Positions 47,460 through 63,940 of a stretch of DNA of 64,000 nucleotides are shown one piece after another. Origin of the DNA: Rhodocyclales bacterium. GTDB taxonomy: Bacteria; Pseudomonadota; Gammaproteobacteria; Burkholderiales; Rhodocyclaceae. The position numbers were made by a program, and so were the translations under genes. Numbering within the stretch: the stretch's first letter is position 1; each line of letters starts with the position of its first letter. Under the pieces are notes generated by a model, which did not search any database, was not told the origin of the DNA, and worked only from the letters and a program-made list of their open reading frames with translations. The stretch spans positions 248,001 to 312,000 of the forward strand of contig JACRLX010000021.1 of the NCBI GenBank assembly GCA_016235165.1, in the 5' to 3' direction.

Positions 47460-48574
47460 GGGGCTGTCATCTCGCTGTTTCTCCCGTCCGGCACTGGGCC
47501 GATCGGCTCGTCCTGCCCGATATCCCGCTCCGCCTTCCTGCCCAGGAGATCCCAGGTCCACATCGGCGAGAGGCCATCGCCGGGACGCTTGGCGGCGATG
47601 TCGGACTCGGTCAATCGGCTTCCCTGCTGGATCGGCCGTGCCGCCACGAGGCTTTTGCGGGCGGCTGTGCGGTTGGCGATTTCCGCGGGCGATGGCCGTT
47701 TGACACCGTCACCCAGGGCAAGCTCGACAGCCCGAATCCCTGAAACCATGGCCTGCAACTCACCGGGTTCGAGCGATGCCGCATGATCGGGACCCAGCAT
47801 CGTCCGGTCCAGCGTGAAATGCTTTTCGATCACCGTGGCACCGCACGCGACGGCCGCAAGCGGAATCGCGATGCCGGGCGTGTGGTCCGACAATCCGACC
47901 GGGATCCCCCAGGCATCGCGCATCGTCGCCATGGCGCGAAGGTTCGTGTCGGCATAGTCCGCCGGATACTCGGTCGTGCAATGGAGCAGGGTAAGCTTGG
48001 CGCGAAGGCGGGAAAGGGTCTCGGCGGACGGCCGGTAGTCCTGCAGTTCGTGGCGCGACCCGGGGCATCCTGCGGCCCGGTCCAGGCCCCATGCCAGCAA
48101 ACGTATCGCCTCACCCACTTCGTCGAGCGTGCTCATTCCGGTTGAAAGGATCAACTGCCCGGCCCGGCGAATCGCATGCAACAGCAAGGGCCCGTTCGTT
48201 ACCTCGCCCGACGAGAGCTTGATGGTCCGCAGTCCCATCGCATCGACCAGGAAGTCGAGGCTTTCCAGATCGAAGGGCGTCGACAGGAATCGGATCCCGC
48301 GCCGCGCACAGTGCCGGGCTATCGCATCGTGCATGACCGGCGAAAGTTCGAGCCGCCGCAGCATTTCGAACTGGCCCTCGCCCGCTCCCGCAGACCGTCT
48401 CTGGTAGGCCGCCTTCTGCGCACTCGCCGTAACCAGTTCGGCGGTGCGGAAGGTCTGGAACTTGACGGCATCGGCCCCGGCATTCGCGGCAACATCGACC
48501 AGCGCCATGGCCAGCGCCAGTTCACCGTTGTGATTGACGCCCGCCTCGGCAATGATGAAAGTATGTTCAGTCAT
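47456..48574 (-). CDS. legI: Legionaminic acid synthase (NeuB family)
   Basis: Condenses a six-carbon 2,4-diamino sugar with phosphoenolpyruvate to the nine-carbon acid. 372 residues: NeuB TIM barrel with IIAEAGVNHNGELALA, VKFQTFRTAEL, STGMSTLDEVGEA, LLHCTTEYPADY and VIEKHFTLDRTMLGPDHAAS, then a C-terminal SAF domain (about 290-355). The ATG at 48574 overlaps the LegG stop by 8 nt. It sits beside a NeuC-like epimerase, which defines the legionaminic or neuraminic branch, and differs clearly from the second NeuB homologue at 57096. Confidence 0.94.
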   Translation of the reverse strand: MTEHTFIIAEAGVNHNGELALAMALVDVAANAGADAVKFQTFRTAELVTASAQKAAYQRRSAGAGEGQFEMLRRLELSPVMHDAIARHCARRGIRFLSTPFDLESLDFLVDAMGLRTIKLSSGEVTNGPLLLHAIRRAGQLILSTGMSTLDEVGEAIRLLAWGLDRAAGCPGSRHELQDYRPSAETLSRLRAKLTLLHCTTEYPADYADTNLRAMATMRDAWGIPVGLSDHTPGIAIPLAAVACGATVIEKHFTLDRTMLGPDHAASLEPGELQAMVSGIRAVELALGDGVKRPSPAEIANRTAARKSLVAARPIQQGSRLTESDIAAKRPGDGLSPMWTWDLLGRKAERDIGQDEPIGPVPDGRNSEMTAP

Positions 48575-49745: not shown

Positions 49746-50881
49746 GCTTCCTCCACCGCTGCCGTGACGGCCGCGACCACGGTTTCGAGCTCCGCGTCGG
49801 CGATGCCGGTCGACGCAGGAAGCGTGACTATTCGCGACCAGAGCGCTTCGGTAAGCACAAGCTCATCGCGTGGTGCATCGGCATACGGCGCCTGCTGGTG
49901 TATCGGTCGCCAGAAGGAACGCGACTCGACGCCCCGTGCATTCAGGGCAGCCCGAACGGCGGCCGGATCTCCCCGCTCCACCACGAATCCCGATAGCCAG
50001 CAGGCGCTGTCGGTCCATTCCGGCCAAGGGAAGGCCCGCAACCCTGCCTTGCCTGCCAGGCGCGAATCGTAGAAGCGCCTGATCTGGCGCTTCCTGGCGA
50101 CGAACTCGTCCAGGCGCTCGAGCTGGGCGCAGCCGACCGCCGCCTGCAGGTTGGTCATGCGGTAGTTGAAACCAACCCGGTCATGGACATAATCCGGCCC
50201 CAGTCGCGCCGTCGTCGTCAGATGGCGGACGAGGTTGACCAGCGTGCGATCGTTGCCGACGACGGCGCCGCCTCCACCCGCCGTGATGGTCTTGTTGCCG
50301 TTGAATGAAATGATCGACAGGTCGGCCAGTTCCCCAAGCGGGCGCCCTCGATAGGTGGCCCCGATCGCCGCCGCCGCGTCGGCGACGACCGGAATCCCGA
50401 ATTCATGCGCCAGGCTGACGATGGCCTGCATGTCCGCCACGTTGCCGAGCACGTGTACCGGCATGATGGCCGCCAGGCGCCGTCCCGATCTGGCATGCAC
50501 CAGTTTTCCGCCGCGCATCGCGCATTCCTTGCGCAAGGCTGCTTCGAGACGTTGCGGACACATGCACCATGAGTCGGGCGCAATGTCGACGAACCACGGC
50601 GTGGCGCCGCAATGGGCGATTGCATTGGCGCTGGCGATGAAGGAGAACGACGGTGCCAGCACCAGGTCGCCGTGGACCACGCCAAGCGCGGTCAGGGCCG
50701 CGTGCAGTCCCGTGGTGCCGCTCGACGTCGCCGCGCAGGCGAGAGCCCCGGTGGCCTCGGCCGTCATTTCCTCCAGTTTCGTCACGAACGGGCCGACCGA
50801 TGAAACGAAGCCGGTGCGAACGCATTCCATGAGGTAGTCCGCTTCCCGCCCGCTGATGTTGGGTATGGCTGCCGGAATCAT
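49742..50881 (-). CDS. legC: LegC-like PLP aminotransferase
   Basis: DegT-family enzyme of 379 residues, the C4 aminotransferase of the legionaminic route. It opens IPAAIPNISGREADYL, a LegC-type N-terminus. The PLP lysine is in ISFNGNKTITAGGGG. Further blocks are VADAAAAIGATY and GFNYRMTNLQAAVG. It starts four bases after the acetyltransferase stop and overlaps legG. Confidence 0.92.
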   Translation of the reverse strand: MIPAAIPNISGREADYLMECVRTGFVSSVGPFVTKLEEMTAEATGALACAATSSGTTGLHAALTALGVVHGDLVLAPSFSFIASANAIAHCGATPWFVDIAPDSWCMCPQRLEAALRKECAMRGGKLVHARSGRRLAAIMPVHVLGNVADMQAIVSLAHEFGIPVVADAAAAIGATYRGRPLGELADLSIISFNGNKTITAGGGGAVVGNDRTLVNLVRHLTTTARLGPDYVHDRVGFNYRMTNLQAAVGCAQLERLDEFVARKRQIRRFYDSRLAGKAGLRAFPWPEWTDSACWLSGFVVERGDPAAVRAALNARGVESRSFWRPIHQQAPYADAPRDELVLTEALWSRIVTLPASTGIADAELETVVAAVTAAVEEA

Positions 50882-50885
50882 GCCG

Positions 50886-51515
50886 TCATCCCCCCGCCCG
50901 CCTGGAAACCAGCTTCGCGCCGGCAGCCACGTCCCGATCGACGATGCAACCCATGCCGACCACCGCCCGCTCGCCGATCCGGATGCCCTGTTTCAGCACC
51001 GCACCGCTGCCGATGAAAGCCCCGGTGCCGATGGTGCAGCCGCCGTTTACCAATGCGCCGGTCGCCACGTGGCAATGATCGCCGACCCGGACATCGTGTT
51101 CGACGAGGGCCCGCGAATTGATGATGCAGTTGACGCCGATCCGCGCCGCCGGCCCGACCATTGCCATCTGCATGACGATCGTCCCGCCACCGACTTCGGC
51201 GTCGCCCGCCACGTGCGCCGTCCGCGCGACCACCGCGGGAAGCCTGGCCTCCAGTTCGAGCAGTCGGGAGTACAGGCGAATTCGCGGATCCGGCGACAGG
51301 ATCTGGCCGACAGTCACCAGCGCGGCATTGCCGGCGGCGATCAGCCCGGGCAGGTCGCTGTCGCTGCCGACAACCGGCACGCCCGCCACGTCGCCTCCTT
51401 GGTACTCCCGCCTTTCGACGATTCCCGCCGCCCTGAAGGCATCGAGGGACGCAAGCACATCGAGGCAGGCTCTGGCATGTCCGCCGCCTCCGATCAGTAT
51501 CAAGTCTATCGCCAC
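50886..51515 (-). CDS. legH: NeuD/PglD-type sugar O/N-acetyltransferase (LegH-like)
   Basis: A 209-residue protein with the two-part PglD structure: N-terminal nucleotide-sugar domain (LILIGGGGHARACLDVL) and C-terminal left-handed beta-helix of hexapeptide repeats ending in VVGMGCIVDRDVAAGAKLV. The catalytic His is in INSRALVEHDVRVGDHCHVATG. Start is GTG at 51515. Between LegB and LegC it most likely N-acetylates the 4-amino sugar; O-acetylation of the final nonulosonate (NeuD role) is an alternative. Confidence 0.9.
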   Translation of the reverse strand: MAIDLILIGGGGHARACLDVLASLDAFRAAGIVERREYQGGDVAGVPVVGSDSDLPGLIAAGNAALVTVGQILSPDPRIRLYSRLLELEARLPAVVARTAHVAGDAEVGGGTIVMQMAMVGPAARIGVNCIINSRALVEHDVRVGDHCHVATGALVNGGCTIGTGAFIGSGAVLKQGIRIGERAVVGMGCIVDRDVAAGAKLVSRRAGG

Positions 51516-51536
51516 GATGCGTCTGCGCCGAGCCGG

Positions 51537-52547
51537 CTAGATGTTGTAGACATGGGCCTTGTAGGCGGACAGGTTGTCGCCGGAGGCAAACCAGGCCACG
51601 GTGTTCTCCAGCCCGCGCCGGAAGCCTTCGCGCCCGCCGTAGGCCGGCGCCCAGCCCGTGAGTTGGCGCAGGCGTTCGGCCGAGGCAAACAGGCGCTCGA
51701 CCTCGCTTTTTTCGGGCCGGACCCGCTGCGGATCGCAGACGAGCTCGATCTCCCTGCCCATCACCTCGGCGATCAGGCGGGCCGTATCCTCGATCGATAT
51801 CTCGAAACCGCTGCCCGAATTGAGCACCTCGCCAATGCTTGCATCGCATTCGGCGACGCTGACGAAGGCCTGGACCGTATCGGCCACATAGCTGAAATCG
51901 CGTGTCGGATGCAGGGTGCCGAGCTGAACCCGGCGCTGCCCGTTCGCCAGTTGCGATATCACGGTCGGAATCACGGCGCGGGCACTCTGCCGCGGACCAT
52001 AGGTATTGAACGGCCGCAAAACCGCAACCGGCGTACCGAACGAACGCTGGAATGAAAGCGCGATCTGGTCGGCACCGATCTTCGACGCCGAGTAGGGCGA
52101 CTGCCCCTGCAGCGGATGACTCTCGTCGATCGGCACGTAGGTTGCGGTGCCATAGACTTCGCTGGTCGAGGTATGCACGACCTTGGCCACGCCCAGTTCG
52201 CGGGCAGCCTGAACGACATTCAGCGTTCCCTTGATGTTGGTATCGACATAGGTATCCGGGGAATGGTACGAGTACGGAATCGCGATCAAGGCCGCAAGGT
52301 GCAGTACCACGTCGCATCCTGCCATCGCCGTGCGCACTCCGTGCGGGTCCCGGATGTCGCCGGCAAACACCTCGATGGCATCACGGACTTCCTTGCGGCT
52401 CGCGTCCAGCCATCCCCAGGAATTGAAGGAGTTGTAGCAAACGAAAGCCCGGACGTCGTAGCCGCGTCCGACCAGGGCCTCTACCAGGTGCGAGCCGATG
52501 AATCCGTCGGCGCCGGTTACCAGGATTTTCTTGCCGCTCAGTTCCAT
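51537..52547 (-). CDS. legB: NAD-dependent 4,6-dehydratase (LegB-like)
   Basis: Extended SDR of 336 residues producing the 4-keto-6-deoxy sugar nucleotide. The NAD loop is VTGADGFIGSHLVEAL and the active site Tyr/Lys is in SPYSASKIGADQIALSF, with Thr-Ser-Thr in VHTSTSEVYGTA. FNSWGWLD and FAGDIRDP match the LegB/PtmC-type family. Start ATG at 52547 with GAGG upstream. It is the first gene of the legionaminic cassette and follows the ABC transporter by 16 bases. Confidence 0.93.
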   Translation of the reverse strand: MELSGKKILVTGADGFIGSHLVEALVGRGYDVRAFVCYNSFNSWGWLDASRKEVRDAIEVFAGDIRDPHGVRTAMAGCDVVLHLAALIAIPYSYHSPDTYVDTNIKGTLNVVQAARELGVAKVVHTSTSEVYGTATYVPIDESHPLQGQSPYSASKIGADQIALSFQRSFGTPVAVLRPFNTYGPRQSARAVIPTVISQLANGQRRVQLGTLHPTRDFSYVADTVQAFVSVAECDASIGEVLNSGSGFEISIEDTARLIAEVMGREIELVCDPQRVRPEKSEVERLFASAERLRQLTGWAPAYGGREGFRRGLENTVAWFASGDNLSAYKAHVYNI

Positions 52548-52563: not shown

Positions 52564-54369
52564 TCAGATCGCGGCAGCCTGGAGTCCGGCCACTCGCGCA
52601 TACCAGTCTTCATTCGTGGCAAGCTCGTCGTGCATGCCTTCCTCCGTTACTCGCCCATCCTGCAGCACAATGATCTTGTCCGCATTGCGGATCGTCGACA
52701 GGCGGTGAGCAATGATGATCACAGTCCTGTCGCCCCTGGCGCGAAGCTCGGCAAGCGCCTTCTGCACGCCCGCCTCGGTCTCGTAATCCAGCGCGCTGGT
52801 CGGTTCGTCGAGAACCAGGATGCTGTTGCCCTGGAGCAAGGCACGCGCCAGCGAAAGGCGTTGGCGTTGCCCGCCCGAAAGACGGGTTCCGCGCTCGCCA
52901 AGCTCGGTATCCAGCCCGTTCGGAAAGGCGCTCACGAATTCCGCCGCCTGGGCTCCGGCCAGCGCACGCCAGAGGTCGTCTTCACCGGCCTCGGGCCGCA
53001 CGAAGCGCAGGTTCTCGCGCACGGTATCGTCGAGTAGCGAGGCTTCCTGCGAAACGAAGGCGATCTCCCGGCGCAAGGATCCGAGATCGAACTCCGTCGC
53101 GTCGACGCCGTCGAAAAGGATGCGGCCGCGCTGGGGCACGAGCAGCCGGGGAAGCACGTCCGCCAGGGTCGTCTTGCCTGCGCCGGACGGACCGACGAGC
53201 GCCGTGACCTTTCCCGCCGGAATCTCCAGGCTGACATCCTGCAGGGCTTCGACGGTACCCCCCTCATAGGCGAAGCCGACGCCGACCAGCCGGATCGAAT
53301 CACGCAGGCCGGTAAAGCTTCGGCCGCCACCGCCCGGCTCGATGGCAGATCTCGCGCCCGCATAGGCACCGGTGACTGCGGCAATGCTGCCGACGCAGGC
53401 CATGTACGACTGGCGCGACTTCATCACCTCCTTGGCCAAAGGCAACAGCCGCAACAAGATGAGGAGGAACAGCCCGACCTCGGAGAGGCTCATGCCCAAT
53501 GCGGTAACGGCGAGAAACAGGATCGCGCCGCCGCAGAGCAGGATCATGGGCTCCATGATCAGGTCGACGCTTGCCACGATCTTGGATAGCCAGAACAGCC
53601 GGTCGCGGACATCCTCCGATGCCAGCCGGGTCTTTCCCGCTTCGCGCGACGCCGTCGCCGTAAGCTTGAGCAGCCTGAAGGCGCCGAGGCGATCCAGCGC
53701 AATCCGCGAATAGCGATCATTGGCCCCCGACGCGGCGTGGCTCAGGCGGCGGGTGTGGCGAACGTAATAGCTGACGACGAGCCCGGCGCTGCCGAGGAAG
53801 GCGACCGACAACACGGTCAGCGGAGCCGACAGCCAGAGCAGCACGGCAACGAACCCCAACCCGACCGCCGCGTTGGCTGCCAGCGCGAACAGGGCGTTGA
53901 AACTCCCCGCCGCGCGTTGCGCCTCGGTGGTCAGGACATTGATCATGCTGCCGCTGGACTGGCGCCCGAAGGACGCGTACGCCATCCCGACATAGGCATC
54001 GAACAGATTGCTGCGCGTCGTATGCTGGATTTCCTGGCTGAGCCAGGTCGAATATACCTGGCGTGCATAAATCACCACGACCCGGACCAGCATGGTCCCG
54101 ATCGCCGCGGCCAGGAGCGTGAACAGGCTGACATCGATGCCCAGTGCCGAATAGATCCCGATCAAGCGGCGCCAACTGTCGGACACGGCGGCGAGTTGCC
54201 TGATGTCCTGGCCCTTTTCCACGAACTCGAGCACGGGCAAGAACATGGCCATGCCGAAGCCTTCGAATATCGCGGCCGCAACGCTGAGCCCGGCTAACGC
54301 CGACAGGCGGCTCCGCGTAAGGCCGAACAGTCCCGGTGGGCCAAGCAGCGAATCGATCGAGAAGCGCAT
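52564..54369 (-). CDS. ABC transporter, fused permease/ATPase (PglK/MsbA-like flippase)
   Basis: Half-transporter of 601 residues. The N-terminal two-thirds is a six-helix membrane domain. The ATPase has Walker A GPSGAGKTT, signature LSGGQRQRLSLARALL and Walker B ILVLDEPTSALD with the switch His in IIAHRLST. This fits flippases of lipid-linked oligosaccharides such as PglK, which would export the glycan unit across the inner membrane. No Wzx was seen in the window. It follows the PIG-L gene by 20 bases. Confidence 0.93.
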   Translation of the reverse strand: MRFSIDSLLGPPGLFGLTRSRLSALAGLSVAAAIFEGFGMAMFLPVLEFVEKGQDIRQLAAVSDSWRRLIGIYSALGIDVSLFTLLAAAIGTMLVRVVVIYARQVYSTWLSQEIQHTTRSNLFDAYVGMAYASFGRQSSGSMINVLTTEAQRAAGSFNALFALAANAAVGLGFVAVLLWLSAPLTVLSVAFLGSAGLVVSYYVRHTRRLSHAASGANDRYSRIALDRLGAFRLLKLTATASREAGKTRLASEDVRDRLFWLSKIVASVDLIMEPMILLCGGAILFLAVTALGMSLSEVGLFLLILLRLLPLAKEVMKSRQSYMACVGSIAAVTGAYAGARSAIEPGGGGRSFTGLRDSIRLVGVGFAYEGGTVEALQDVSLEIPAGKVTALVGPSGAGKTTLADVLPRLLVPQRGRILFDGVDATEFDLGSLRREIAFVSQEASLLDDTVRENLRFVRPEAGEDDLWRALAGAQAAEFVSAFPNGLDTELGERGTRLSGGQRQRLSLARALLQGNSILVLDEPTSALDYETEAGVQKALAELRARGDRTVIIIAHRLSTIRNADKIIVLQDGRVTEEGMHDELATNEDWYARVAGLQAAAI

Positions 54370-54389: not shown

Positions 54390-55073
54390 TCAGAGTCGCC
54401 GCCAGATGGTCTGAAACGCCTCGGCGGCCGCCACCCCGACGCAGACGCCGCGATCGACGGCCTGCGCTTCCACCGCCCGCAGCGAGCGTGGGTGGGGAAA
54501 CGCGCGGATTTCGCTGCCATAGGCACGGAGCGCGTCCAGCTTATTGGCAAGGAAGGCGGAAATATCCACGTAGGTGTCGGGCACGAACGCGGGCGAGAAC
54601 TTGCCGAACGCCCATTCCGACGAGGATGCCACCTCGAAGGCCCGCAGCTCCCGGGCGCGGGTCCCTGGCAGCGGGCGAAAGGCCGTCATCGCGGCGCGAA
54701 ACGTCAGTTCGTGGTCGCGGTTGAGATCGCCACCGTGCTGGACCAGCACCAGCTCAGGATCGAAGCGCGCGGCCAGTTCCTCGACCACCTTCACGATATC
54801 CAGCAGATCCAGCGCATCGAAGCGGTTGTCGGCCAGGCCGCAATGGACAAGGTCGCGCACGCCGAGGATGCGTGCCGCCTCGCGACTGCACTGTTTCAAG
54901 GCGGCAACCTCGGCCGCTCCCTCGGCGCTGCCCACAGAATGGCGCGACGTACCACCCTCGCCCAGGATCGCGACGGCGACCGATCTGCCTTCGGCCGACA
55001 TGCGTGCAATGCTCCCGCCGCAGCCCAGGACTTCGTCATCCGGATGCGCGGCGATCACCAGAACGTCGCTCAT
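54390..55073 (-). CDS. PIG-L/LmbE-family N-deacetylase
   Basis: A 227-residue protein with the intact metal motif AAHPDDEVLGCGGSIA and the second site GGDLNRDHELTF. It should remove an N-acetyl group from an amino sugar, exposing the amine. The ATG at 55073 overlaps the dehydrogenase stop (ATGA) at 55070. Position next to an ATP-grasp ligase suggests the amine is then coupled to another acyl group. The longer frame extending to 55550 is not supported. Confidence 0.92.
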   Translation of the reverse strand: MSDVLVIAAHPDDEVLGCGGSIARMSAEGRSVAVAILGEGGTSRHSVGSAEGAAEVAALKQCSREAARILGVRDLVHCGLADNRFDALDLLDIVKVVEELAARFDPELVLVQHGGDLNRDHELTFRAAMTAFRPLPGTRARELRAFEVASSSEWAFGKFSPAFVPDTYVDISAFLANKLDALRAYGSEIRAFPHPRSLRAVEAQAVDRGVCVGVAAAEAFQTIWRRL

Positions 55074-56035
55074 TGCGCCATCTCCTCCTGCCAACCGGCA
55101 ATCAGCCCGCACATGTCGCGGGCGAGCGTCACGGCGATCCTCTCCTGGGCTTCGTCGGTCGAGGCGGCCATGTGGGGGAAAACCACGACGCGCGGATGAT
55201 GCAGATAGGGATGATCGTAACCATGGCTGCCCGGCTCGGCATTGAAGGGCGGCTCCGGTGCCAGCGTATCGATGGCCAGGCCGGCCAGCCGGCCGGAATC
55301 CAATGCGGCGAGCACGTCCTGGTCCACCATCAGGCCGCCGCGGGCGATATTCACCAGCCATAGCCCTGGCCGCGCATGCTGCAGGATTTCGCGGTTGATG
55401 ATCCCTTTCGACTGGTCGTTGTACGTGGCATGCAGGCTGACGATCTCGCTCGCCGCCAGCAGTTCGGCAACACTCGCCACCGGGGTCGCCCCCTCGGCAA
55501 CGGCTTCCTGCATCTTCTGCGCTACGGAATCGTGGACCAGTACCTTGCATCCGAATCCCCTCAGGCGCTCGGCTGCCAGTCGGCCGACATTGCCGTAGCC
55601 CAGCAGGCCGACACGCAGGCCCTGCAGTTCGCGTCCTTCAAGCAGGTCGCGCCGGAAATCCCCCGCACGAACGGCATCGATCGCCGGCACTGCCCGTTTC
55701 GCCAGCATCAGGATGCACATGACCGCGAACTCGGCGGCGGAAACCGAATTGCCGCGCGGAACGGTCAGCAAGGGAATGTTCTTCTGCGCCAGGTAGGGCT
55801 TGTCGAAATTGTCGGTACCGGTGCCGGCCCGGCCGACCAGCTTGAGTCTGGGGGCCGCATCGATGAACTCGCGGTCGACGTGCGTCACGCTCTTGCAGAC
55901 CACCGCGTCCGCACGATGCAACTGCGCCAAGATTCGCTCCCGCGGCCAACCGATCATGTTTTCCACCTTGCCGGCGTCGCGCAGGACATCGATCCCGCTT
56001 TGGTGGATGCTTTCCAATACGAATATCGTGACCAT
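55070..56035 (-). CDS. D-isomer-specific 2-hydroxyacid dehydrogenase (SerA-like)
   Basis: NAD-dependent dehydrogenase of 321 residues. Rossmann loop LGYGNVGRLAAERL, catalytic Arg in VNIARGGLMVDQD, Glu in DTLAPEPPF and His in VFPHMAAST are all present. The N-terminal RAGTGTDNFD resembles phosphoglycerate dehydrogenases, but there is no ACT domain. In this context it may make or use a hydroxy acid needed for sugar acylation. Neighbours are a PIG-L gene (overlap 4) and an ATP-grasp gene (gap 2). Confidence 0.92.
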   Translation of the reverse strand: MVTIFVLESIHQSGIDVLRDAGKVENMIGWPRERILAQLHRADAVVCKSVTHVDREFIDAAPRLKLVGRAGTGTDNFDKPYLAQKNIPLLTVPRGNSVSAAEFAVMCILMLAKRAVPAIDAVRAGDFRRDLLEGRELQGLRVGLLGYGNVGRLAAERLRGFGCKVLVHDSVAQKMQEAVAEGATPVASVAELLAASEIVSLHATYNDQSKGIINREILQHARPGLWLVNIARGGLMVDQDVLAALDSGRLAGLAIDTLAPEPPFNAEPGSHGYDHPYLHHPRVVVFPHMAASTDEAQERIAVTLARDMCGLIAGWQEEMAQ

Positions 56036-56037
56036 AC

Positions 56038-57099
56038 TCAGGCGCCTGAAGACTCGATCACGGGTACCAGGTCGAATACCGGCTTGCCGCCCTTACCCCA
56101 GGGAACAGCCACCTCGGGGACCTTTTCACCCAGGAGCATCAGTACCGCGAACTCCAGGAGATTGACGCCGTGCAGCACCGACACCGCGACGCTGGCGCTC
56201 ATCCGCGGATTGACTTCCAGCAGCCAGGGGCGGCCGTTCGCATCCTGGATGATGTCGTAGTCGAACAGGTTGGGCAGGCGCAACATGCCCTGGACCTGGG
56301 CAGCCAGTTCCAAGACCTCCGGATTGCGGTCGATCCAGCAGCCGCGAAACGGCGTCGTCCTGACGTGGTAACGATGGCGGGGGACGAGATAGCTGGGGCT
56401 GCCCTGTGCATCGGCCAGCACATCCACGTCAAACATGTCACCGGCAAGCATGGGCATTGCCAGCAGTTCGTCAATGCGGTCGTCCTGCGCCGATCCCAGG
56501 TAGGTTTCCAGGTCGAGGGCATCGATCGCCAGGCCCTTGTTCCGCTCCGCCATGGTCGGCACGCGGGCCGAAATCACCCAGACGCCGCGCCCGCCGCGAC
56601 CGACGGTCGGTTTCACCACGAAGTCGCGCCCGGGATAGCCGAATTCCGCGGCAACCTGGCGCAGTTCGGCGGCGCTCCGCACGCGACGGTAGGCCGGCAG
56701 GGCCAGCCCCTTGTCCGCCAGGTGATCGTACATGTCCGCCTTGTTCCGCATCAACCCGGCCATTTCCGCCGGAGGGCAGGAAACCTTCACCTTCTCCGCC
56801 GCGAAGCGTTGCTGATGCACCGCCAGGGCGAGCGCCTCCTCGTCGGAGGTGGGGAAGAGGACGTCGATCCTTTCCCGGACGCAGAGTTCCAGCATGCGGT
56901 CGATGTACGACGGATCGTCGCCGAAAGGAACCTGATGAAAGCTGTCCGCATAGCCACGTCCGAGGGCGTCGGCGCGGCCGTCGGTGCCGACCGCGCTGAT
57001 GCGCAGCCGTTCGCTGCGTTTCAGCGCCTGCAACAGCCACGGCGACAGTTGCCCGCCGACGCAGGTCATCAGGACTCTTACGCTTTCCTTCATGGTCAT
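56038..57099 (-). CDS. ATP-grasp ligase
   Basis: A 353-residue carboxylate-amine/thiol ligase-like protein. N-terminal VLMTCVGGQLSPWLLQALKR is a carbamoyl-phosphate-synthase-like start. The ATP-grasp region has FVVKPTVGRGGRGVWVI and the metal-binding PWLLEVNPRMSASV. It probably joins an acid to an amine on a sugar. The ATG at 57099 overlaps the second NeuB stop by four bases. The substrate cannot be told. Confidence 0.88.
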   Translation of the reverse strand: MTMKESVRVLMTCVGGQLSPWLLQALKRSERLRISAVGTDGRADALGRGYADSFHQVPFGDDPSYIDRMLELCVRERIDVLFPTSDEEALALAVHQQRFAAEKVKVSCPPAEMAGLMRNKADMYDHLADKGLALPAYRRVRSAAELRQVAAEFGYPGRDFVVKPTVGRGGRGVWVISARVPTMAERNKGLAIDALDLETYLGSAQDDRIDELLAMPMLAGDMFDVDVLADAQGSPSYLVPRHRYHVRTTPFRGCWIDRNPEVLELAAQVQGMLRLPNLFDYDIIQDANGRPWLLEVNPRMSASVAVSVLHGVNLLEFAVLMLLGEKVPEVAVPWGKGGKPVFDLVPVIESSGA

Positions 57100-58139
57100 T
57101 TCCCTGGTTCCCCCTGTTCAAGGTCCTCTGGTCGAATCGCCTGGTAGCGCCGCAGCGGGCGCAGGGTGCGACGACCGCACCACTGTTCCCAACGGGCCGG
57201 TTCCGCCCCGCGCTGCTGGGGCAGGGTCCGCATGAAGCCGACGTTTTCCAGCGACAGCACCTCTCCCGCATCGATGTCGCGGCGCGCGACGATGCTCCGG
57301 AAGTATCGCGTTCCCGCCTGAACCTGCTCCGCCGAGCGCGACTTGGCGGCCGAGCCCATGATGGCTTCCGCCCGGCGCACGGCAGTAACCAGGGCGGCGA
57401 GGCCTTCCGCGTCCACCGAGAGGCGATGGTCGAATCCGGGTCGCGACGGGTCGGAACTGAAATGCTTTTCGATGACGCAGGCGCCTGCCGCAACCGCAAG
57501 GGCCGCCGCGTCTTGGCCGATCGAATGATCCGAGAACCCGCAGGGCACGCCGAAGGTTTCCGCAAGGATACGGATCGCCGCCAGGTTCAGCATTTCCGGC
57601 TCGGCCGGATAGATCGAGGTGCATTGCAGCAGGCACAGGTTTTCGTTACCCGCGGCGCGTGCGGCACCGACCGCCTGCGTCACCTGTGGCAGATCCGACA
57701 TCCCCGTGGACATGATCAACGTCCGCTTCGTTGCAGCCGTTGCGGCAATCAGCGGAAGATGCGTCAGAAGGCCGGACGAAATCTTGTGCGCCGCCGGATT
57801 CAATGCCTCGACCCACGCGAGGGTCGCCAGGTCGCCGCAGGTCGTCAAGGCGTCCATTCCCAAAGAGCGCGCAAGTCGAAACGCAGCCGCCGTATCCTCC
57901 GGCCCCAGCCACGCCCGGCTGAACAGATCGTGCGATTCGGTGCCGGGAACGTAGTTTTCGTCGGCATCCAAGGTTTGCAACTTGATCGCGTCGGCCCCGG
58001 CACGTGCAGCGTCGCGGATCAGGCGCATGCATTCTTCGGCATCCCCTTCGTGGTTGATCCCGATTTCGGCGATCACGGCCACGGGATTGTCCTGACCGAG
58101 GGATCGCGTACCGAAGGCTACGGTCTTGTGTCCTGTCAT
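57096..58139 (-). CDS. NeuB-family nonulosonate synthase (second, PseI/SpsE-like)
   Basis: PEP-condensing synthase of 347 residues: VIAEIGINHEGDAEECM, IKLQTLDADENYV, MSTGMSDLPQVTQAV, LLQCTSIYPAEPEMLN, CGFSDHSIGQDAAA and VIEKHFSSDPSRPGFDH, then a C-terminal SAF domain. It is clearly different from LegI at 47456. Start ATG at 58139 overlaps the PseG-GNAT stop (ATGA). Partners are PseG-like, SpsF-like and a class III aminotransferase, so the acid made is neither obviously legionaminic nor pseudaminic. Confidence 0.92.
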   Translation of the reverse strand: MTGHKTVAFGTRSLGQDNPVAVIAEIGINHEGDAEECMRLIRDAARAGADAIKLQTLDADENYVPGTESHDLFSRAWLGPEDTAAAFRLARSLGMDALTTCGDLATLAWVEALNPAAHKISSGLLTHLPLIAATAATKRTLIMSTGMSDLPQVTQAVGAARAAGNENLCLLQCTSIYPAEPEMLNLAAIRILAETFGVPCGFSDHSIGQDAAALAVAAGACVIEKHFSSDPSRPGFDHRLSVDAEGLAALVTAVRRAEAIMGSAAKSRSAEQVQAGTRYFRSIVARRDIDAGEVLSLENVGFMRTLPQQRGAEPARWEQWCGRRTLRPLRRYQAIRPEDLEQGEPGK

Positions 58140-59665
58140 GTCCTTGCCGGCGTCAGCGCCAGGCCAAAGCCCCTGCAATCCCGGCCCTGTTTGCGGCGGG
58201 GACCGAGATCGCGATATCCGGCCGCAAGAAACGCGCGCCGCGACGCCGCATTGTCGTCGATCACCACACCGGTCGCTTCGCCGATCCCCAGCCGCGATGC
58301 CGCAAGCGCGGCACCGTCGCGCAACAGGCGCCTGCCAAGCCCGCGCCTGCGGAATGCCGGATGGATCGCGTAATCGATTTCGGCGCCGCCCCCGGTCCGA
58401 TCGAAACGGATCAGCCCGGCCACGACGGCCTCGACCTCGATGACGAACAGGGCGCAGTCCGTGCGCCCCAGGCGATCGATGAACCAACGCGTGTGATCCT
58501 CAAGGCCGATCGGCTCCGGTGAAAAGGAATTCGCGCGCACCTCGCGGTCGTTGGCGATCCGATGCACGGCTTCGAGATCGTCGATGCGCGCCGGCCGGAT
58601 CGACCAACCATGCTTCGGTTCCTCGCCATCCAGCGTCGCCAGGACGGCGCATACCCGCTGGGCACCGAGACCGTCGCATGCCTGCGGGCCGGCCAGTGCC
58701 ATCGCCGATCGGCGACCTTCGTCCCCGAGCAGGCCGGCCAGCAAGTCCGTGAATTCGGATGAAACGAGATCCTGCGGGCCACCCAGACTGACTGCGACGC
58801 CGGCGGCGGCCAGGAAAGCCGCGCCTGCTTCCTGGTTCGACGCCACCGGAACAAGAATCGCCGGCAGGCCACAGGCCGCCATTTCCCACGCCGCGCCACC
58901 GGCGGCACTCAGGGCGATATCCGCCCGTGCATACAGTGTCGCCATATCGGCGACATCGCGGTGCAACTCTTGCCGGCAGGCAAGCCCGGACAAGGCCGCA
59001 GCAACCGCATCGCCATGCCGGTTCAAGGGCCCGAGCACGACGATGACCAGATCCCGGGCATCGAGCAGGGGAGCAAGCGCCCCCAGCGCACGGCAGGTCA
59101 CGTTGGCCGAATCGGCAGCGCCAAAGGCGACGAGAACCGTCGTTCCGCCGAGGGATGAACCGGTATCCCTTCTGCATTCCATGAATCCTGCGCGCAGCGG
59201 CCTGAACTTGAGTCCGGCCATGACGACCGTGGCCGGAAGCGTCGCGTAACGCGAAATCCTGGCGTCGTGCCCCGGCGCCAGCACGGCCTGGACCGGATAC
59301 GCGGAAAGCTTCGCCTCGTCATCGACCACCAGCACCCTGTATCCCTCCGCCACGAGGCTGGAATGCCAGTCGGTGCTGAAATGATAGCCGTCGAGCACCA
59401 CCCAGCTGCCGTCGAGTCCGTTGTCACGCAGGCAGGCCGCAGTATCTTCCGCCGCGGGGCCGGGCACCAGGCATTCGAAGCCCTCGGCCTCCATGCGCTC
59501 GCGCAGCGAGGCCGAGTCGATCCGGCCGCAGAACACGGCGCGACCGTGAGCGGCCTTCCATGCCTGGGCCAGAGCCAGGCTGCGCATGACATGGCCGGCG
59601 CCGATCCGCGCATCGGCGTCGGCGCGAAGAACCAGGACGGATCGGCAAGGCAACGGGTCTGACAT
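58136..59665 (-). CDS. PseG-like UDP-sugar hydrolase fused to a GNAT acetyltransferase
   Basis: A 509-residue fusion. Residues about 1-345 resemble PseG: LRADADARIGAGHVMRSLALA, LDGYHFSTDWHSSL and LSAAGGAAWEMAACGLPAILV, the GT-B-like site that removes UDP. Residues about 350-509 are a GNAT domain (IRPARIDDLEAVHRIAND, DYAIHPAFRRRGLGRRLL, VIDDNAASRRAFLAAGY) with the acetyl-CoA loop RRRGLG. This couples two steps found as separate PseG and PseH enzymes elsewhere. Its ATG shares one base with the preceding stop (TGATG). Confidence 0.9.
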   Translation of the reverse strand: MSDPLPCRSVLVLRADADARIGAGHVMRSLALAQAWKAAHGRAVFCGRIDSASLRERMEAEGFECLVPGPAAEDTAACLRDNGLDGSWVVLDGYHFSTDWHSSLVAEGYRVLVVDDEAKLSAYPVQAVLAPGHDARISRYATLPATVVMAGLKFRPLRAGFMECRRDTGSSLGGTTVLVAFGAADSANVTCRALGALAPLLDARDLVIVVLGPLNRHGDAVAAALSGLACRQELHRDVADMATLYARADIALSAAGGAAWEMAACGLPAILVPVASNQEAGAAFLAAAGVAVSLGGPQDLVSSEFTDLLAGLLGDEGRRSAMALAGPQACDGLGAQRVCAVLATLDGEEPKHGWSIRPARIDDLEAVHRIANDREVRANSFSPEPIGLEDHTRWFIDRLGRTDCALFVIEVEAVVAGLIRFDRTGGGAEIDYAIHPAFRRRGLGRRLLRDGAALAASRLGIGEATGVVIDDNAASRRAFLAAGYRDLGPRRKQGRDCRGFGLALTPART

Positions 59666-60984
59666 CAGGACAAACGCTTGAACCCGGAAGCGGCCGGTTC
59701 GCCCCTGAGCGCACGGCCGAGCCCGCCCTCGGCCGCCAGTCTGGCGATTTCGGCGAAAGCCGCATCGCTGGCAGCCAGATAGAACTCGACGTCGTCCATT
59801 GCATGGGCATACATGGAATAGAAGCTGGTCGAGGCAAGAATGCCCTGGTCCAGCATCGACTGGATGTAATAGGCCTTTGCCGACAGGGGCTCTTCGAGTT
59901 CGAACGAAAAATGCGAAAGCGGTGGAATCCCGCCGATCGCCAGGCGCAAACCGTGCTTCTCACCCAGCCTGCGCCAACCCGCCTGAACGGCTTCCCCAAT
60001 CGCCACCAGGTGCCGATGCACGTCCTTCGCGCGGAACTTGCGGATCATGGCCAACGCCGCACTGGGGCCCACCCGTTCGGTCCAGTTGGTCGAGCTGATG
60101 AAGCTGCGCTGCGCCGCCTCCATGACGTTGCCGCGGCCGATGATGGCGGCGATCGGGTAGCCGTTGCCCAGCGCCTTGGAAAACACCGCAAGGTCGGGTA
60201 CCAACCCCAGTTCGAGATGGGCACCGCCGCAATTCAGACGAAAGCCGGCCGAAACCTCGTCGATCACCAGCACTGCACCGCAGGCATCGGCAAGCTCGCG
60301 CACGGTCTGCAGAAACCCCGGGGCCGGCTGCGCACTGCGGATCGGCTCCATCACGATCGCCGCGAGATCGCGGCCATGTTCGGCGATGATCGCCCGCAAA
60401 CCGGCCTCGTCGTTGTACGAGAATGGAAACGCGGTCCCGGCAAGGCTGCGGGGCACACCGGCCGGATCGAGCCCGGAAATCAGGTGCTCGCCCAGCGCAT
60501 TTTCGGTTCCCAGGTTGGCCGCGAGATACCAGTCGTGCCACCCGTGGTACCCGCAAAACGCCAGCTTTTCCCTTCCCGTCGCGGCACGGGCAATGCGCAC
60601 CGCGATCGCCATGCCTTCGCCGCCACCGCGGCAGAACCTGACCATCTCGGCCCAGGGATGCAGCTCGCAAAGCAGGTCGGCAAGCTCGACTTCCTCGGGA
60701 CAGTTCAGCGACGACGCGACTCCCCTGCCGATCGCGGCGAGCACCGCGGCATCCACGTCGGGATCCTGGTAGCCGAGCACGGTTGCCCCGATGCCGCCGA
60801 TCGACATGTCGAGGTAGCGATTGCCGTCCATGTCCCAAACGGTCGCCCCCTTCGCCGCGCTGCTGTAACCCGGCCACACTCCGTAGGAAAAGCGGTCGGG
60901 CCGCTTCGACAGCAGTTGTGCCAGGCCGGGAATCCTGGCCTTCGCGTGTTCCTGCAGGGCGAGACTTTTCGCGATCTGTTTCAC
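59665..60984 (-). CDS. Class III PLP aminotransferase (glutamate-1-semialdehyde-aminomutase-like)
   Basis: A 439-residue enzyme with VLVIDEVSAGFR and the PLP lysine in AVFSKALGNGYPIAAI. The fold is that of HemL, but context and sequence (SSTNWTERVGPSAALAM) differ. No haem genes are near, so a role in making an amino sugar or its precursor is more likely. It takes the place that a DegT-type aminotransferase (PseC/LegC) has in known nonulosonate routes. Overlaps: four bases with the cytidylyltransferase gene upstream and one with the PseG fusion. Confidence 0.92.
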   Translation of the reverse strand: MKQIAKSLALQEHAKARIPGLAQLLSKRPDRFSYGVWPGYSSAAKGATVWDMDGNRYLDMSIGGIGATVLGYQDPDVDAAVLAAIGRGVASSLNCPEEVELADLLCELHPWAEMVRFCRGGGEGMAIAVRIARAATGREKLAFCGYHGWHDWYLAANLGTENALGEHLISGLDPAGVPRSLAGTAFPFSYNDEAGLRAIIAEHGRDLAAIVMEPIRSAQPAPGFLQTVRELADACGAVLVIDEVSAGFRLNCGGAHLELGLVPDLAVFSKALGNGYPIAAIIGRGNVMEAAQRSFISSTNWTERVGPSAALAMIRKFRAKDVHRHLVAIGEAVQAGWRRLGEKHGLRLAIGGIPPLSHFSFELEEPLSAKAYYIQSMLDQGILASTSFYSMYAHAMDDVEFYLAASDAAFAEIARLAAEGGLGRALRGEPAASGFKRLS

Positions 60985-61727
60985 TTCGAAATCGATCCCT
61001 CGTTGCGTTGAATGCCTTGGTTGATCAGCGTCAGTTCCGGACGTTCCCGAACCAGCGCCAGTACGTCCCTGAAGCCGAATGCCGGCGATGCCGGGTACAA
61101 CGACTCATACACCCGGCGCACGAATTCGAGGTCCGTCGGGCGATCGACCGTCCAGCGCATCGCCGACAGGTCTTCCGTCCAGGTCCAGTTCGCGGTACGA
61201 AAGCGCTCGGGCCTGCGGATGATGAAGGGAACCACGTGCTCCCTTTCGAACGGATCCGTGGCTTCGCGCCAGGCCTGCGCCAGCGCCTTCATGCCGAAGA
61301 TCTCCGCATCAAGCCCGTCCGGCAAGCTCGGGGGCCGGCAATTCGATGCGTAGTCGACTTCCCGTTCGAGATACAGGTCCGCCAACGCATCGATCAATTC
61401 CGGATCGGCAAGCGGGCAATCGCCGGTCAGCCTGAGCACGTGTGCCGCATCGAACTGCCGGGCGCATTGGTAAAAACGGTCGAGCACGTCCTCCAGACTG
61501 CCGCGGAAGCAGTCGACGCCTTCGCTCGCGCACAGCGCGGCAACGGGCGCATCTTCCGGCCGGTCGCTGGTGGCCACCACCAGCCTGCCAATGGCGCGGC
61601 TGCGCCGTACTCGCTCGATCTGCATGCCCAGCATGGGCCGGCCGAGGATGGGTGCAAGAACCTTGCCCGGCAAGCGCGAGGACGACATCCGCGCTTGCAG
61701 GATTGCCACGATCCCGCCGTCAGCCAT
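60981..61727 (-). CDS. SpsF/cytidylyltransferase-family protein
   Basis: A 248-residue nucleotidyltransferase: VAILQARMSSSRLPGKVLAP, RGSLEDVLDRFYQCAR, LRLTGDCPLADPELID and the C-terminal RWTVDRPTDLEFVRRVY. This is the family of SpsF in Bacillus spore-coat polysaccharide synthesis and similar CMP-sugar makers. It probably activates the nonulosonate of this module. ATG at 61727; overlaps the GNAT gene by 8 nt. Confidence 0.93.
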   Translation of the reverse strand: MADGGIVAILQARMSSSRLPGKVLAPILGRPMLGMQIERVRRSRAIGRLVVATSDRPEDAPVAALCASEGVDCFRGSLEDVLDRFYQCARQFDAAHVLRLTGDCPLADPELIDALADLYLEREVDYASNCRPPSLPDGLDAEIFGMKALAQAWREATDPFEREHVVPFIIRRPERFRTANWTWTEDLSAMRWTVDRPTDLEFVRRVYESLYPASPAFGFRDVLALVRERPELTLINQGIQRNEGSISK

Positions 61728-62256
61728 CGTGAAACTCCGATGCCAGCAGGCCGACCAGGGTTTCGTCGCGCCAGGTCGACTCGCACAGATTCTGTTGCCG
61801 CCGCACACCCTCGACGACGAATCCGTTCTTCAGGAAGGCTTTCAACGATGCCTCGTTGCCATCGATGATCCCGGCCGTGAGCTTGTGCAGTCGAAGCGGG
61901 CCGAACGCATGTCTTGCCGCAAGACGGATCGCTTCGGACGCATAGCCCCTGTTCCAGCAGGTTCTTTCGCCAATCACAAGACCAAGGCTCGCGGTCCGGT
62001 GTATGGCGTTGACCGGTCCGATCTTGATGTTGCCAACATGGCGGCCGCCCTCGGTCTCGAACAGTCCCATCAGGAATTCGCTGTCGCTCACACCCAGTTT
62101 ATCGACATACGCAAGCAGGCTTTCGTAGGTATGGACGCCATGCCTGGCTTCCGTAAAGCGCACTACCTCGGGGTCGTTCATCCAGGCGACATAGCCGGCC
62201 CCGACATCGGCCCGGGTCAGTCTGCGCAGATGCAGCCGTTCGGGGAAAACGTCCAG
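61720..62256 (-). CDS. GNAT-family N-acetyltransferase (RimJ/RimL type), probable CTG start
   Basis: Acetyltransferase of about 178 residues if it begins at the CTG at 62256-62254, or 153 if it begins at the ATG at 62181. The longer form supplies the family start (RLHLRRLTRADVGAGYVAW, then MNDPEVVRFTEARH); the shorter loses the first strand. The AcCoA motif region is VIGERTCWNRGYASEAIRLA. AAGGAG lies seven bases before the CTG. The stop overlaps the SpsF-like gene by 8 nt. It may N-acetylate the amino sugar of this module, as PseH does. Confidence 0.85.
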   Translation of the reverse strand: MDVFPERLHLRRLTRADVGAGYVAWMNDPEVVRFTEARHGVHTYESLLAYVDKLGVSDSEFLMGLFETEGGRHVGNIKIGPVNAIHRTASLGLVIGERTCWNRGYASEAIRLAARHAFGPLRLHKLTAGIIDGNEASLKAFLKNGFVVEGVRRQQNLCESTWRDETLVGLLASEFHDG

Positions 62257-62260
62257 CGGA

Positions 62261-62947
62261 CTACTCCTTGACCGCGCTGACGATCCATTCGTTGATCCGG
62301 CGTCCGAACAGCTTGTGCGCCGAAAACCCCGAATCGACCACTTTCAGGTGGGGGCTCACGAGATCCACGAATGCCTGCTCGGTCGGCAGGCAATAGCACC
62401 GCACCGGCGGCTCGTTGCCTTTCATGCCCCGGAACAGGAATACGTTCGGCTCCACCTGTTCCTGGTTCGTCGAGAATTCCGAATCGTGGTCGTTGATATC
62501 GAGAACCACCTTGCCGCCCGGCTTCAGCACGCGCCGGAATTCCGCTAGCAAGTGCTTCACCGCGGACTCGCCGCCCAGCAACGAAAGGATGCTGATGCCA
62601 ACCACGAAATCGAAGCTTTCATCGGGATACGGAAGCGCACTTGCCTCGGGATCGATGCGCGACAGGTGCAGCCGTGACCTCAGCTCCGGGCGCGTCGCCA
62701 GTTTCCGACCCACCAGGTCGATGGCACCCTGCGCCGCATCGACCGCCTCGACCTCATACCCGCATTCGAGCAGGTGGATCGTGTTTACTCCCGTGCCACA
62801 GGCATATTCGAGCACCCGGCCGCGTCCGGGATGACCGAACAGCCAGTATTCGAGGCGAACCAGTTCGAGCGAGGGATAGCGCTTGTCCGATCCCGAGGCA
62901 TACACGCCTTCCCACTTCTTGAGCACATCCGCTTGCACCAGTTTCAT
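62261..62947 (-). CDS. Class I SAM-dependent methyltransferase
   Basis: A 228-residue methyltransferase: VLEYACGTGVNTIHLLECGY for SAM binding, VDAAQGAIDL, DESFDFVVGISILSLLGG and RRVLKPGGKVVLDIND. It has no membrane segments. The ATG at 62947 is preceded by GGAG with six bases between; a TTG 12 bases upstream is the only longer choice. It could methylate an N or O position of the sugar or a carboxyl group. Confidence 0.9.
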   Translation of the reverse strand: MKLVQADVLKKWEGVYASGSDKRYPSLELVRLEYWLFGHPGRGRVLEYACGTGVNTIHLLECGYEVEAVDAAQGAIDLVGRKLATRPELRSRLHLSRIDPEASALPYPDESFDFVVGISILSLLGGESAVKHLLAEFRRVLKPGGKVVLDINDHDSEFSTNQEQVEPNVFLFRGMKGNEPPVRCYCLPTEQAFVDLVSPHLKVVDSGFSAHKLFGRRINEWIVSAVKE

Positions 62948-62962
62948 CGAGTTCTCCAAGGC

Positions 62963-63940
62963 TCAGTAGCCCAGTTGCTTGTTGACGGGATTGAACAGGT
63001 TCTCGCCCCGCAGGTGGCGGGCGATGTTGTTGCGCACCAGTTCGAAGCTCCTGCGCCGATTGTGATCCGACGGTCCCGCCATGTGCGGCGTGATCAGGAC
63101 ATGGGGGTAGGACCAGAGGGGATGCGCGGCAGGCAGCGGCTCCGGATCGGTGACGTCGAGTCCGACTCCGCGGAACTTGCCGGCGGCGACCGCCTCGGTC
63201 AGCGCGGCCGTATCGACCACCGCACCGCGCGACACATTGACGAAAATGCTGTCGTTTTTCATCGCGGCAAAGTGGCTGCGATCGATCACCTGCAGGGTGC
63301 GCGCCGTGGTGGGCGCGGCGCAGACCACCACATCCGCGCGCGGCAGCTGGGCCAGGAAGTCCTCCGGTCCGTAGAACTCGTCGACCATCGAGAGCATTGG
63401 CGGCAGGTCGTTTGCTATGCCGATCACCGACATGCCGAATGCCTTGACGCGTTCGGCTACCAGCAGCCCGATGCCGCCGAGGCCGAACACCAGGCAGGTC
63501 TTCTTGCGCAGCTCTATCGCCCGCGGCATCTCCTGGCGCGGCTGCCCGCGCAGCAGGCGCGCCACGTTCCGCGACAGGGCAAGGATCAAGGCCACGGCGT
63601 GGTCGGCCACTTCGGGACCCTGAATGATGCGTCCGTTGGTGAACACGAACTCGCCATCGACGAACTCGGGGAAAATGAACTGTTCGACGCCCGCGCCGGT
63701 GCTGTGCACCCAGGCGAGCCGCGGTGCCCGCGCCAGAAGCTCTGCGGAAAAGATGTGCCGGGGACAGCCGACCAGCACGCTGGCGTCGGGCAAGGCAGCA
63801 AGGATCGCCTCGCGGTTGTCGTCCGCGGCGATGAAATCCGCCTCCGGAAAGGTGGCCGTCATTTCATCGATCCACTCCTGGGGAAAACCTGCCGACCTCA
63901 CCAGGAGGATCTTCGGTCTAGTCTGTGTGCCTGCGTGCAT
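62963..63940 (-). CDS. D-isomer-specific 2-hydroxyacid dehydrogenase
   Basis: A 325-residue dehydrogenase with LVFGLGGIGLLVAERV (NAD site), catalytic Arg in VNVSRGAVVDT, Glu in DVTDPEPLP and His in LITPHMAGPSD. It is more like the hydroxypyruvate/glyoxylate-reductase side of the family than the dehydrogenase at 55070. The start ATG at 63940 follows GGAGCAGGA. It is the first complete gene of the nonulosonate-like module in this window. Confidence 0.92.
   Translation of the reverse strand: MHAGTQTRPKILLVRSAGFPQEWIDEMTATFPEADFIAADDNREAILAALPDASVLVGCPRHIFSAELLARAPRLAWVHSTGAGVEQFIFPEFVDGEFVFTNGRIIQGPEVADHAVALILALSRNVARLLRGQPRQEMPRAIELRKKTCLVFGLGGIGLLVAERVKAFGMSVIGIANDLPPMLSMVDEFYGPEDFLAQLPRADVVVCAAPTTARTLQVIDRSHFAAMKNDSIFVNVSRGAVVDTAALTEAVAAGKFRGVGLDVTDPEPLPAAHPLWSYPHVLITPHMAGPSDHNRRRSFELVRNNIARHLRGENLFNPVNKQLGY

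Follow-up and report, generated by a model that had tools for sequence, protein, structure and literature searches.

Among the closest described systems to the locus studied here is the CMP-pseudaminic acid pathway, which runs through PseB, PseC, PseH, PseG, PseI, and PseF. The locus is a ten-gene nonulosonate (NulO) module in a 64,000-nucleotide stretch (C17:248001-312000, here called the window) of the 4.47-Mb genome of a Rhodocyclales bacterium. We found that the module makes up the lower part of a run of 16 genes, PseB and PseC among them, and in this run an aldo/keto reductase (AKR), an SpsF-like cytidylyltransferase, and a class III aminotransferase (AMT) are found instead of PseF. We tentatively suggest that these three enzymes may form a cassette that adds a third amine to a pseudaminic-type sugar.

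The gene arrangement is already in print for Aeromonas, and related sets are in print for Vibrio and Legionella. The group I flagellin glycosylation islands of Aeromonas are annotated as pseB-pseC-alpha/keto reductase-pseF-class III aminotransferase-pseG-pseI, with 39 strains in subgroup IA alone; some of them carry a deacetylase and a methyltransferase, and PseG/PseH chimeras have been noted (PMC7874193). In the available part of that source, the likeness lies in annotated gene names and comes without chemistry. The nab cluster of Vibrio B9-25K2 has an SpsF-type cytidylyltransferase-aldo-keto reductase fusion adjoining PseC, which was proposed to replace NeuA (PMC7371886). The two proteins are fused there and separate here, and the part of the Vibrio source available to us mentions no class III aminotransferase. 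In the O-antigen locus of Legionella pneumophila serogroup 6, genes for PseG, a "glutamate-1-semialdehyde aminomutase," a cytidylyltransferase, and an acetyltransferase are adjacent (PMC3694923); the surroundings differ from those found here, and the accessible text lists the genes without assigned function. We found no assigned chemistry for the AKR-SpsF-AMT set in the open-access literature. The accessible text of papers on Shewanella and A. caviae flagellins and on Ferroplasma had no bearing on the cassette, and a Vibrio capsule paper gave no match for the terms sought.

Two further systems are related by their chemistry. KdnB is the 8-oxidase of 3-deoxy-D-manno-octulosonic acid (Kdo) and catalyzes step one of the synthesis of its 8-amino derivative, Kdo8N (PMC5125639). 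As in the cassette considered here, KdnB, KdnA, and KdsB combine an oxidoreductase, a pyridoxal phosphate (PLP)-dependent aminotransferase, and a cytidylyltransferase, and a hydroxyl group of an ulosonate is replaced by an amine; however, the sugar has eight carbons, the oxidoreductase is an Fe-dependent alcohol dehydrogenase and not an AKR, and KdnA is not a class III enzyme. A natural 8-amino-3,5,7,8,9-pentadeoxynonulosonate is known from Flexibacter maritimus, for which the part of a review available to us gives two acyl versions and no assigned C8 configuration (PMC3210612). The Tenacibaculum maritimum genome paper gave no match for lipopolysaccharide or nonulosonate terms.

The original prediction, made from the window alone, held that PseB and a DegT aminotransferase are absent and that the class III aminotransferase takes over the DegT step. 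The absence is true of the ten genes only. When the next 19 kb of the same contig beyond the right window edge were included, PseC and PseB were identified 4.6 to 7.6 kb past the edge, both over their NCBIfam cut-offs and on the strand of the ten genes (Table 1). Upstream from the module, the order is an asparagine-synthase-like gene, a gene for a ~608-residue protein that neither Pfam nor NCBIfam matched at an E value of 0.001, AKR, PseC, a sulfotransferase-like gene, and PseB. The 16 genes from PseB to PIG-L share one strand, and apart from the 79 nt before the GNAT gene no gap between them exceeds 20 nt; AKR, PseC, PseB, SpsF, and AMT share this one run, five genes separating AKR from SpsF. 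All 17 genes read here are open frames. PseB and PseC appeared to be absent because the window edge cut the run, so the edge alone gave a false "missing PseB/PseC."

Since PseB and PseC lie in the same gene run, AMT is not a DegT stand-in, and AMT as a replacement for PseC was rejected. PseB and PseC just past the right edge had been named beforehand as an observation that would refute the proposal, and both genes were also found in 29 of 80 loci selected by their AMT (described below). A route without PseB and DegT, with the class III aminotransferase doing the DegT step, can draw on neither gene being among the ten of the module, and in view of the genes past the edge we give it next to no credence. 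The wider idea of an unusual amino sugar acid pathway survived in part: an AMT/SpsF-like/PseG-type unit recurs around NeuB and probably yields an unusual amino nonulosonate, whereas the part of the idea that did without PseB and PseC fell.

The gene families assigned in the original prediction were borne out by Pfam and NCBIfam profiles for all ten open frames, which occupy positions 54390 to 63940 on the minus strand. The window also holds two NeuB synthases as described, the second being LegI, and a third NeuB sits on another contig. The statement that nearly every junction overlaps by 1 to 8 nt applies to six of the nine internal junctions if NeuB2 and PIG-L are read from their nearest ATG; at the remaining three, the genes are 3, 2, and 79 nt apart. 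The 79-nt gap may shrink if the GNAT start is non-standard. The GNAT frame (window 61720-62310) continues without a stop upstream of the first ATG, and the apparently missing N-terminal part of the domain is found there, so that, judged from the sequence, a non-standard codon immediately past the methyltransferase stop is the probable start of translation.

Table 1. Features of the gene run and its surroundings, in window coordinates or their equivalents beyond the right edge unless a locus is named
Feature	Position	Strand	Profile evidence or remark
PseB	70577-71575	-	TIGR03589 514.9 bits, cut-off 407.75
PseC	68635-69804	-	TIGR03588 544.6 bits, cut-off 423.5
Aldo/keto reductase (AKR)	L004:4219-5139	-	
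~608-residue protein	65881-67707 (L004:2382-4208)	-	
2-Hydroxyacid dehydrogenase 1 (presumed decoration role)	62963-63940	-	PF02826 157 bits
S-Adenosylmethionine (SAM) methyltransferase	62261-62959	-	PF08241 56 bits
GNAT acetyltransferase, weakly PseH-like	61720-62181	-	PF13302 60.3 bits; PseH TIGR03585 31.2 of 93.1 bits
SpsF-like cytidylyltransferase, predicted CMP-nonulosonate synthase	60981-61727	-	PF02348 108.7 bits
Class III aminotransferase (AMT), predicted keto-nonulosonate amination	59665-60984	-	PF00202 136.9 bits
PseG-type UDP-sugar hydrolase fused to GNAT	58136-59665	-	TIGR03590 163.8 bits, cut-off 153.55; Acetyltransf_3 at residues 356-484
NeuB2 nonulosonate synthase, divergent	57096-58139	-	PF03102 213.6 bits
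ATP-grasp ligase, predicted N-acylation of sugar	56038-57099	-	PF15632 65.4 bits and PylC-like N domain
2-Hydroxyacid dehydrogenase 2, phosphoglycerate-dehydrogenase-like	55070-56035	-	PF02826 152.7 bits
PIG-L type N-deacetylase	54390-55073	-	PF02585 83.1 bits
ABC exporter, lower end of run, legionaminic-type cassette next	52564-54369	-	PF00005 and PF00664; 20-nt gap
Legionaminic-type cassette, separate	45712-52547		PtmE, LegB, LegI, LegF, and LegC by broad families only; LegG by sequence reading

The run shares with the CMP-pseudaminic acid pathway its gene order and three proteins over their NCBIfam cut-offs, namely, PseB, PseC, and the PseG part of the PseG-GNAT fusion. It differs in the following respects: (i) AKR, SpsF, and AMT are found instead of PseF, and the SpsF-like protein reaches 27.2 bits on the PseF profile (TIGR03584; cut-off, 205.7); (ii) NeuB2 is below both synthase cut-offs, with 242.8 of 399.65 bits for NeuB and 223 of 340.25 bits for PseI (TIGR03586); (iii) the two GNATs score 31.2 and 21.7 bits on the PseH profile, below its cut-off; and (iv) there are additional ATP-grasp, PIG-L, and dehydrogenase genes. 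Neither PseI nor PseF was found over its cut-off in this locus, and we therefore did not place it among the canonical pseudaminic acid pathways.

PseC matches were sought in 398 genomes of the phylum, 86 of which matched, and 76 PseC loci over the curated cut-off were annotated, with the genome studied here left out. The usual operon in these loci is PseB-PseC-PseF-PseG-PseI, and a minority carry AKR, a cytidylyltransferase, and AMT at the place of PseF. AKR and AMT occurred together in 10 loci, AKR only in 1, and AMT only in 0, and both were lacking in 65 (Fisher P = 1.2e-11, with non-independence among related genomes). In one of the 10 loci (L152), AMT is on the opposite strand, and the sole AKR-only locus (L169) is 7.7 kb long and is cut off by the end of its contig. 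The 45 loci with PseB, PseC, and a NeuB2-type synthase comprise 32 that have a NeuA-type protein, taken as PseF, but lack AKR and AMT, 6 with AKR, AMT, and SpsF, 1 with AKR, AMT, and a NeuA-type protein, 2 with SpsF alone, and 4 in which no cytidylyltransferase was found. The trio lies between PseC and NeuB2 in all six AKR-AMT-SpsF loci, in the order AKR-SpsF-AMT in five and AKR-AMT-SpsF in one. Seven of the 10 AMTs in this sample (e.g., those of L100, L130, L143, and L148) are of a second, divergent type, with profile scores of 321 to 355 versus 642 to 707. The divergent type keeps the AKR and cytidylyltransferase context, and the AMTs of the same-family loci L010 and L012 are 35 to 39% identical to that of the window.

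A second sample was obtained by searching one-genome-per-species contigs with the AMT alignment and annotating the best 80 of at least 581 relatives; it is biased to close AMT relatives, and most of its records are metagenome bins. By profile, SpsF was present in 51 of the 80 loci, AKR in 44, a NeuB2-type synthase in 44, PseB in 36, and PseC in 33, and of the 29 loci with both PseB and PseC, 25 had AKR and 27 had SpsF. Judged by record titles and gene lists, PseB, PseC, AKR, AMT, and a cytidylyltransferase were found together in Pseudomonadota, Bacteroidota, Bacillota, Cyanobacteriota, Campylobacterota, Aquificota, Nitrospirota, Omnitrophota, Fibrobacterota, a Pseudodesulfovibrio, and candidate-phylum bacteria. 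SpsF and AMT are fused in 21 of the 156 loci of the two samples (18 of 80 in the AMT sample and 3 of 76 in the PseC sample), the natural fusion proteins having ~680 residues (e.g., L173:8735-10780 and L101:9718-11754), and one locus has an SpsF-AKR fusion. Among 62 loci in which AMT and a cytidylyltransferase lie within 4 kb, AKR was present in 46, a Gfo/Idh protein instead in 6, both in 0, and neither in 10. A NeuA-type protein is found beside AKR and AMT in L038 and L148 and farther off in L066. A NeuA-type protein can thus take the place of SpsF, and Gfo/Idh that of AKR, while the oxidoreductase/aminotransferase/CMP-transferase logic persists. AMT relatives were also seen in eight plasmid records, none with more than 57% identity.

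NeuB2 itself is unusual. In a tree of 102 NeuB sequences, its branch reaches a length of 3.75 and its best identity is 39%, and it keeps 40 of the 69 PseI-invariant columns (the neighboring LegI keeps 47). At the column corresponding to NmNeuB E134, which holds Glu or Asp in 98 of the 102 synthases, NeuB2 has Leu122, while the residues that we take to be its phosphoenolpyruvate (PEP) and metal ligands are intact. NeuB2 may use another substrate or be impaired. The leucine and the very long branch would also be expected if NeuB2 had lost its function and the operon were dying, with no product, but the 17 genes are open, the presumed ligands are in place, and an enzyme that is divergent yet active is no less likely; we consider decay very unlikely.

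The synthases of operons with AKR, a cytidylyltransferase, and AMT (below, the triad) are mostly of another kind. Triad synthases preselected for a profile score of at least 450 (n = 26) keep 83 to 100% of the PseI-invariant columns, and six hand-picked ones score 501 to 513 bits on the PseI profile (cut-off, 340.25). On our own PseI profile, built from 31 synthases of PseF operons, 30 of 42 triad synthases score 335 to 588, suggesting that most, though not all, are PseI-like. The triad label, carried by 40 of the 102 NeuB rows, needs 22 changes on the tree, of which well-supported branches force at least 13. Triad synthases nest among those of PseF operons, such as L100 with L099 and L103 (support, 100/95). 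Because most triad synthases are PseI-like and nested in this way, the cassette seems in most cases to have been swapped behind a pseudaminic acid synthase and to act after it. An unusual NeuB as the general origin of the cassette was rejected, as 30 of the 42 triad synthases are PseI-like (12 are not).

From the computed families, gene order, association, fusions, exclusivity, and intact catalytic residues, we infer every reaction of the cassette, its target carbon, and the decorations as follows. PseB and PseC, probably with a GNAT, would make a UDP-diamino sugar, PseG would free the diamino sugar from UDP, and NeuB2 would join the free sugar to PEP. AKR would then oxidize a hydroxyl left free on the completed NulO to give a keto-nonulosonate, AMT would convert the ketone into an amine, and SpsF would yield the CMP-activated sugar. 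The predicted product is CMP-5,7,8-triamino-3,5,7,8,9-pentadeoxy-nonulosonate, the N-acyl groups of which may be tailored by the ATP-grasp ligase, GNAT, PIG-L, dehydrogenases, and methyltransferase. That this is a pseudaminic-type operon in which an AKR-SpsF-AMT cassette at the place of PseF adds an amine, likely at C8, is our tentative reading, to which we assign a probability slightly short of even.

The only free hydroxyls on a pseudaminic-type sugar are C4-OH and C8-OH. The C3-OH of the hexose becomes the ring oxygen of the NulO, so amination at C3 of the UDP-hexose was excluded. We prefer C8 for two reasons: oxidation there would give a methyl ketone, and a natural 8-amino sugar of this kind is known. 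AKR and AMT could instead alter the NulO by C4 amination or by removal or inversion of an amine via a keto intermediate, as C4-OH is the sole other free hydroxyl and the association data are blind to C4 versus C8. However, we know of no natural 4-amino nonulosonate. An 8-amino nonulosonate has been described in the accessible part of the review (PMC3210612), and changes to the NulO other than C8 amination appear distinctly improbable.

The PLP lysine K270 and D242 are kept in all 53 triad AMTs, including that of the window, and the Asp-Tyr-Lys-His residues that are presumably catalytic in AKR are kept in all 52 triad AKRs, including that of the window run. AMT scored 181.7 of 527.3 bits on the HemL equivalog TIGR00713, and the columns of Escherichia coli HemL R24, W59, and E399, which we take to be the substrate-binding residues of glutamate-1-semialdehyde aminomutase (GSAM), are kept in 0 of 53 triad AMTs; HemL identity of AMT was thus ruled out. 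One column before R24, R28 is an Arg in 46 of 53 (46 of 46 of the close type, with Ser in all 7 divergent AMTs). By sequence, the best solved relatives of AMT are GSAMs (157 bits), C-6' sugar aminotransferases (146 bits), and an aminopentol aminotransferase (145 bits), and this ranking, with GSAM slightly ahead, does not decide the function. The solved chain closest to the SpsF-like protein is the cytidylyltransferase 6oew (134 bits). The other PF02348 proteins of the genome are LegF of the neighboring cassette, a strong match on contig C37 that we take, without a test, for KdsB, and one below the cut-off.

To compare gene contents, 26 triad and 27 PseF operons were used, the remainder of the 156 loci after exclusion of 87 without PseB, PseC, or NeuB2 by profile, 8 with split strands, and 8 of another kind. 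ATP-grasp relatives were found in 5 triad operons and 0 PseF operons (P = 0.023, uncorrected for six families tested, with three of the five being seeds of the profile); this link fits, weakly, acylation of the added amine. No relatives of the 2-hydroxyacid dehydrogenases near NeuB2 were found in the 26 triad operons, PIG-L, short-chain dehydrogenase/reductase (SDR), and metallophosphoesterase families showed no significant triad link in the 26 versus 27 operons, and Pfam scans of unassigned genes (54 genes from triad and 25 from PseF operons) gave no family clearly separating the two sets. A similar trio of SDR, calcineurin-like phosphoesterase, and ATP-grasp genes lies just upstream of NeuB2 in three loci of distant bacteria, L073 (12552-13247; Polaribacter), L101 (6018-6749; with a methyltransferase-like gene interposed), and L041 (14638-15348; Kaiserbacterium), and its phosphoesterase may stand in for a missing PseG. 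The L073 locus (Polaribacter, Flavobacteriaceae) contains PseB, PseC, GNAT, AKR, SpsF, AMT, a second GNAT, SDR, calcineurin-like phosphoesterase, ATP-grasp, and PseI.

These data bear on another explanation, in which the product is ordinary pseudaminic acid, SpsF is a stand-in for PseF, and AKR, AMT, the dehydrogenases, and ATP-grasp build an unusual N-acyl group (a hydroxy or amino acid) and place it on the two existing amines. GSAM-like AMTs commonly act on amino acids, which would agree with GSAM leading the solved relatives and with the Arg adjoining the GSAM Arg column; the ATP-grasp difference and the two complete loci with SpsF and neither AKR nor AMT also point this way. According to the part of a Bacillus subtilis study available to us, spsF is required for legionaminic acid on the spore surface, though complementation failed to restore the mutant (PMC7439481). 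However, the cytidylyltransferase is fused to or flanked by AKR and AMT, which points to the sugar that undergoes activation and away from acyl supply, and ATP-grasp is found in only 5 and the hydroxyacid dehydrogenases in none of the 26 triad operons. Many Gfo/Idh proteins are sugar dehydrogenases, and the exchange of AKR for one of them in 6 of the 62 loci likewise argues against acyl supply. We regard this explanation as unlikely, yet it carries real weight.

Several observations weigh against C8 amination by the cassette. The Arg at R28 may still reach the substrate, so that loss of GSAM-type binding in AMT is not proven, and 12 of the 42 triad synthases score 133 to 289 on our PseI profile, like LegI (236.3) and NeuB2 (222.7). 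Because of these two points and the seeding of the ATP-grasp profile, we lowered our estimates for C8 amination, both in this operon and as a widespread process, and raised that for acyl supply. PseG was found in 14 of the 26 triad operons versus all 27 PseF operons, and AKRs usually work as reductases. An expected surplus of acyltransferases in triad operons is not clear: GNATs averaged 1.0 in triad and 0.41 in PseF operons (Mann-Whitney P = 0.008); within the 7 triad operons of the PseC sample, however, the mean was 0.57. In 24 of 90 AMT loci, no cytidylyltransferase, AKR, or Gfo/Idh gene lies within 4 kb on the same strand, and therefore the AMT family has other uses; some of the 10 AMT-cytidylyltransferase loci with neither oxidoreductase are on short contigs. 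The close AMT type occurs in 5 of the 398 genomes, of which 4 have PseC and 1 (G475) gave no match for PseC at the threshold applied, and we presume one function for both AMT types. The gene-calling profiles were built from window proteins and loci of this study, so divergent genes can escape them.

A HisH/HisF-like pair with an N-acetyl-sugar amidotransferase lies at window positions 42964 to 45721, beside the legionaminic cassette, and in a same-genus relative such a trio (L171:13218-15873) is inside an AKR-SpsF-AMT operon. Such trios are linked to acetamidino groups. The third, distant NeuB (L005:8707-9795; contig C5) scored only 100.5 bits on our own PseI profile, and its neighbors, by sequence reading, are glycosyltransferases, a methyltransferase, and a thiamine-diphosphate-type enzyme.

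Flagella, capsules, and O-antigens are coated with nonulosonic acids, and the presence of PseB, PseC, and PseI often serves as the genomic marker of pseudaminic acid. It is possible, though we hold it with less confidence than the reading of the operon itself, that an oxidoreductase-cytidylyltransferase-AMT cassette, exchangeable with PseF and found with PseB and PseC in at least 10 phyla, turns pseudaminic acid into 8-amino (triamino) nonulosonates activated with CMP. If the cassette adds a third amine, pseudaminic acid calls would be wrong in product for 7 of the 45 complete loci of the sample. The same activity would provide a biosynthetic route for the 8-amino nonulosonate of Flexibacter maritimus, as well as naturally fused enzymes with which such sugars could be made, and triamino nonulosonates would be common surface sugars and not an oddity of one fish pathogen.

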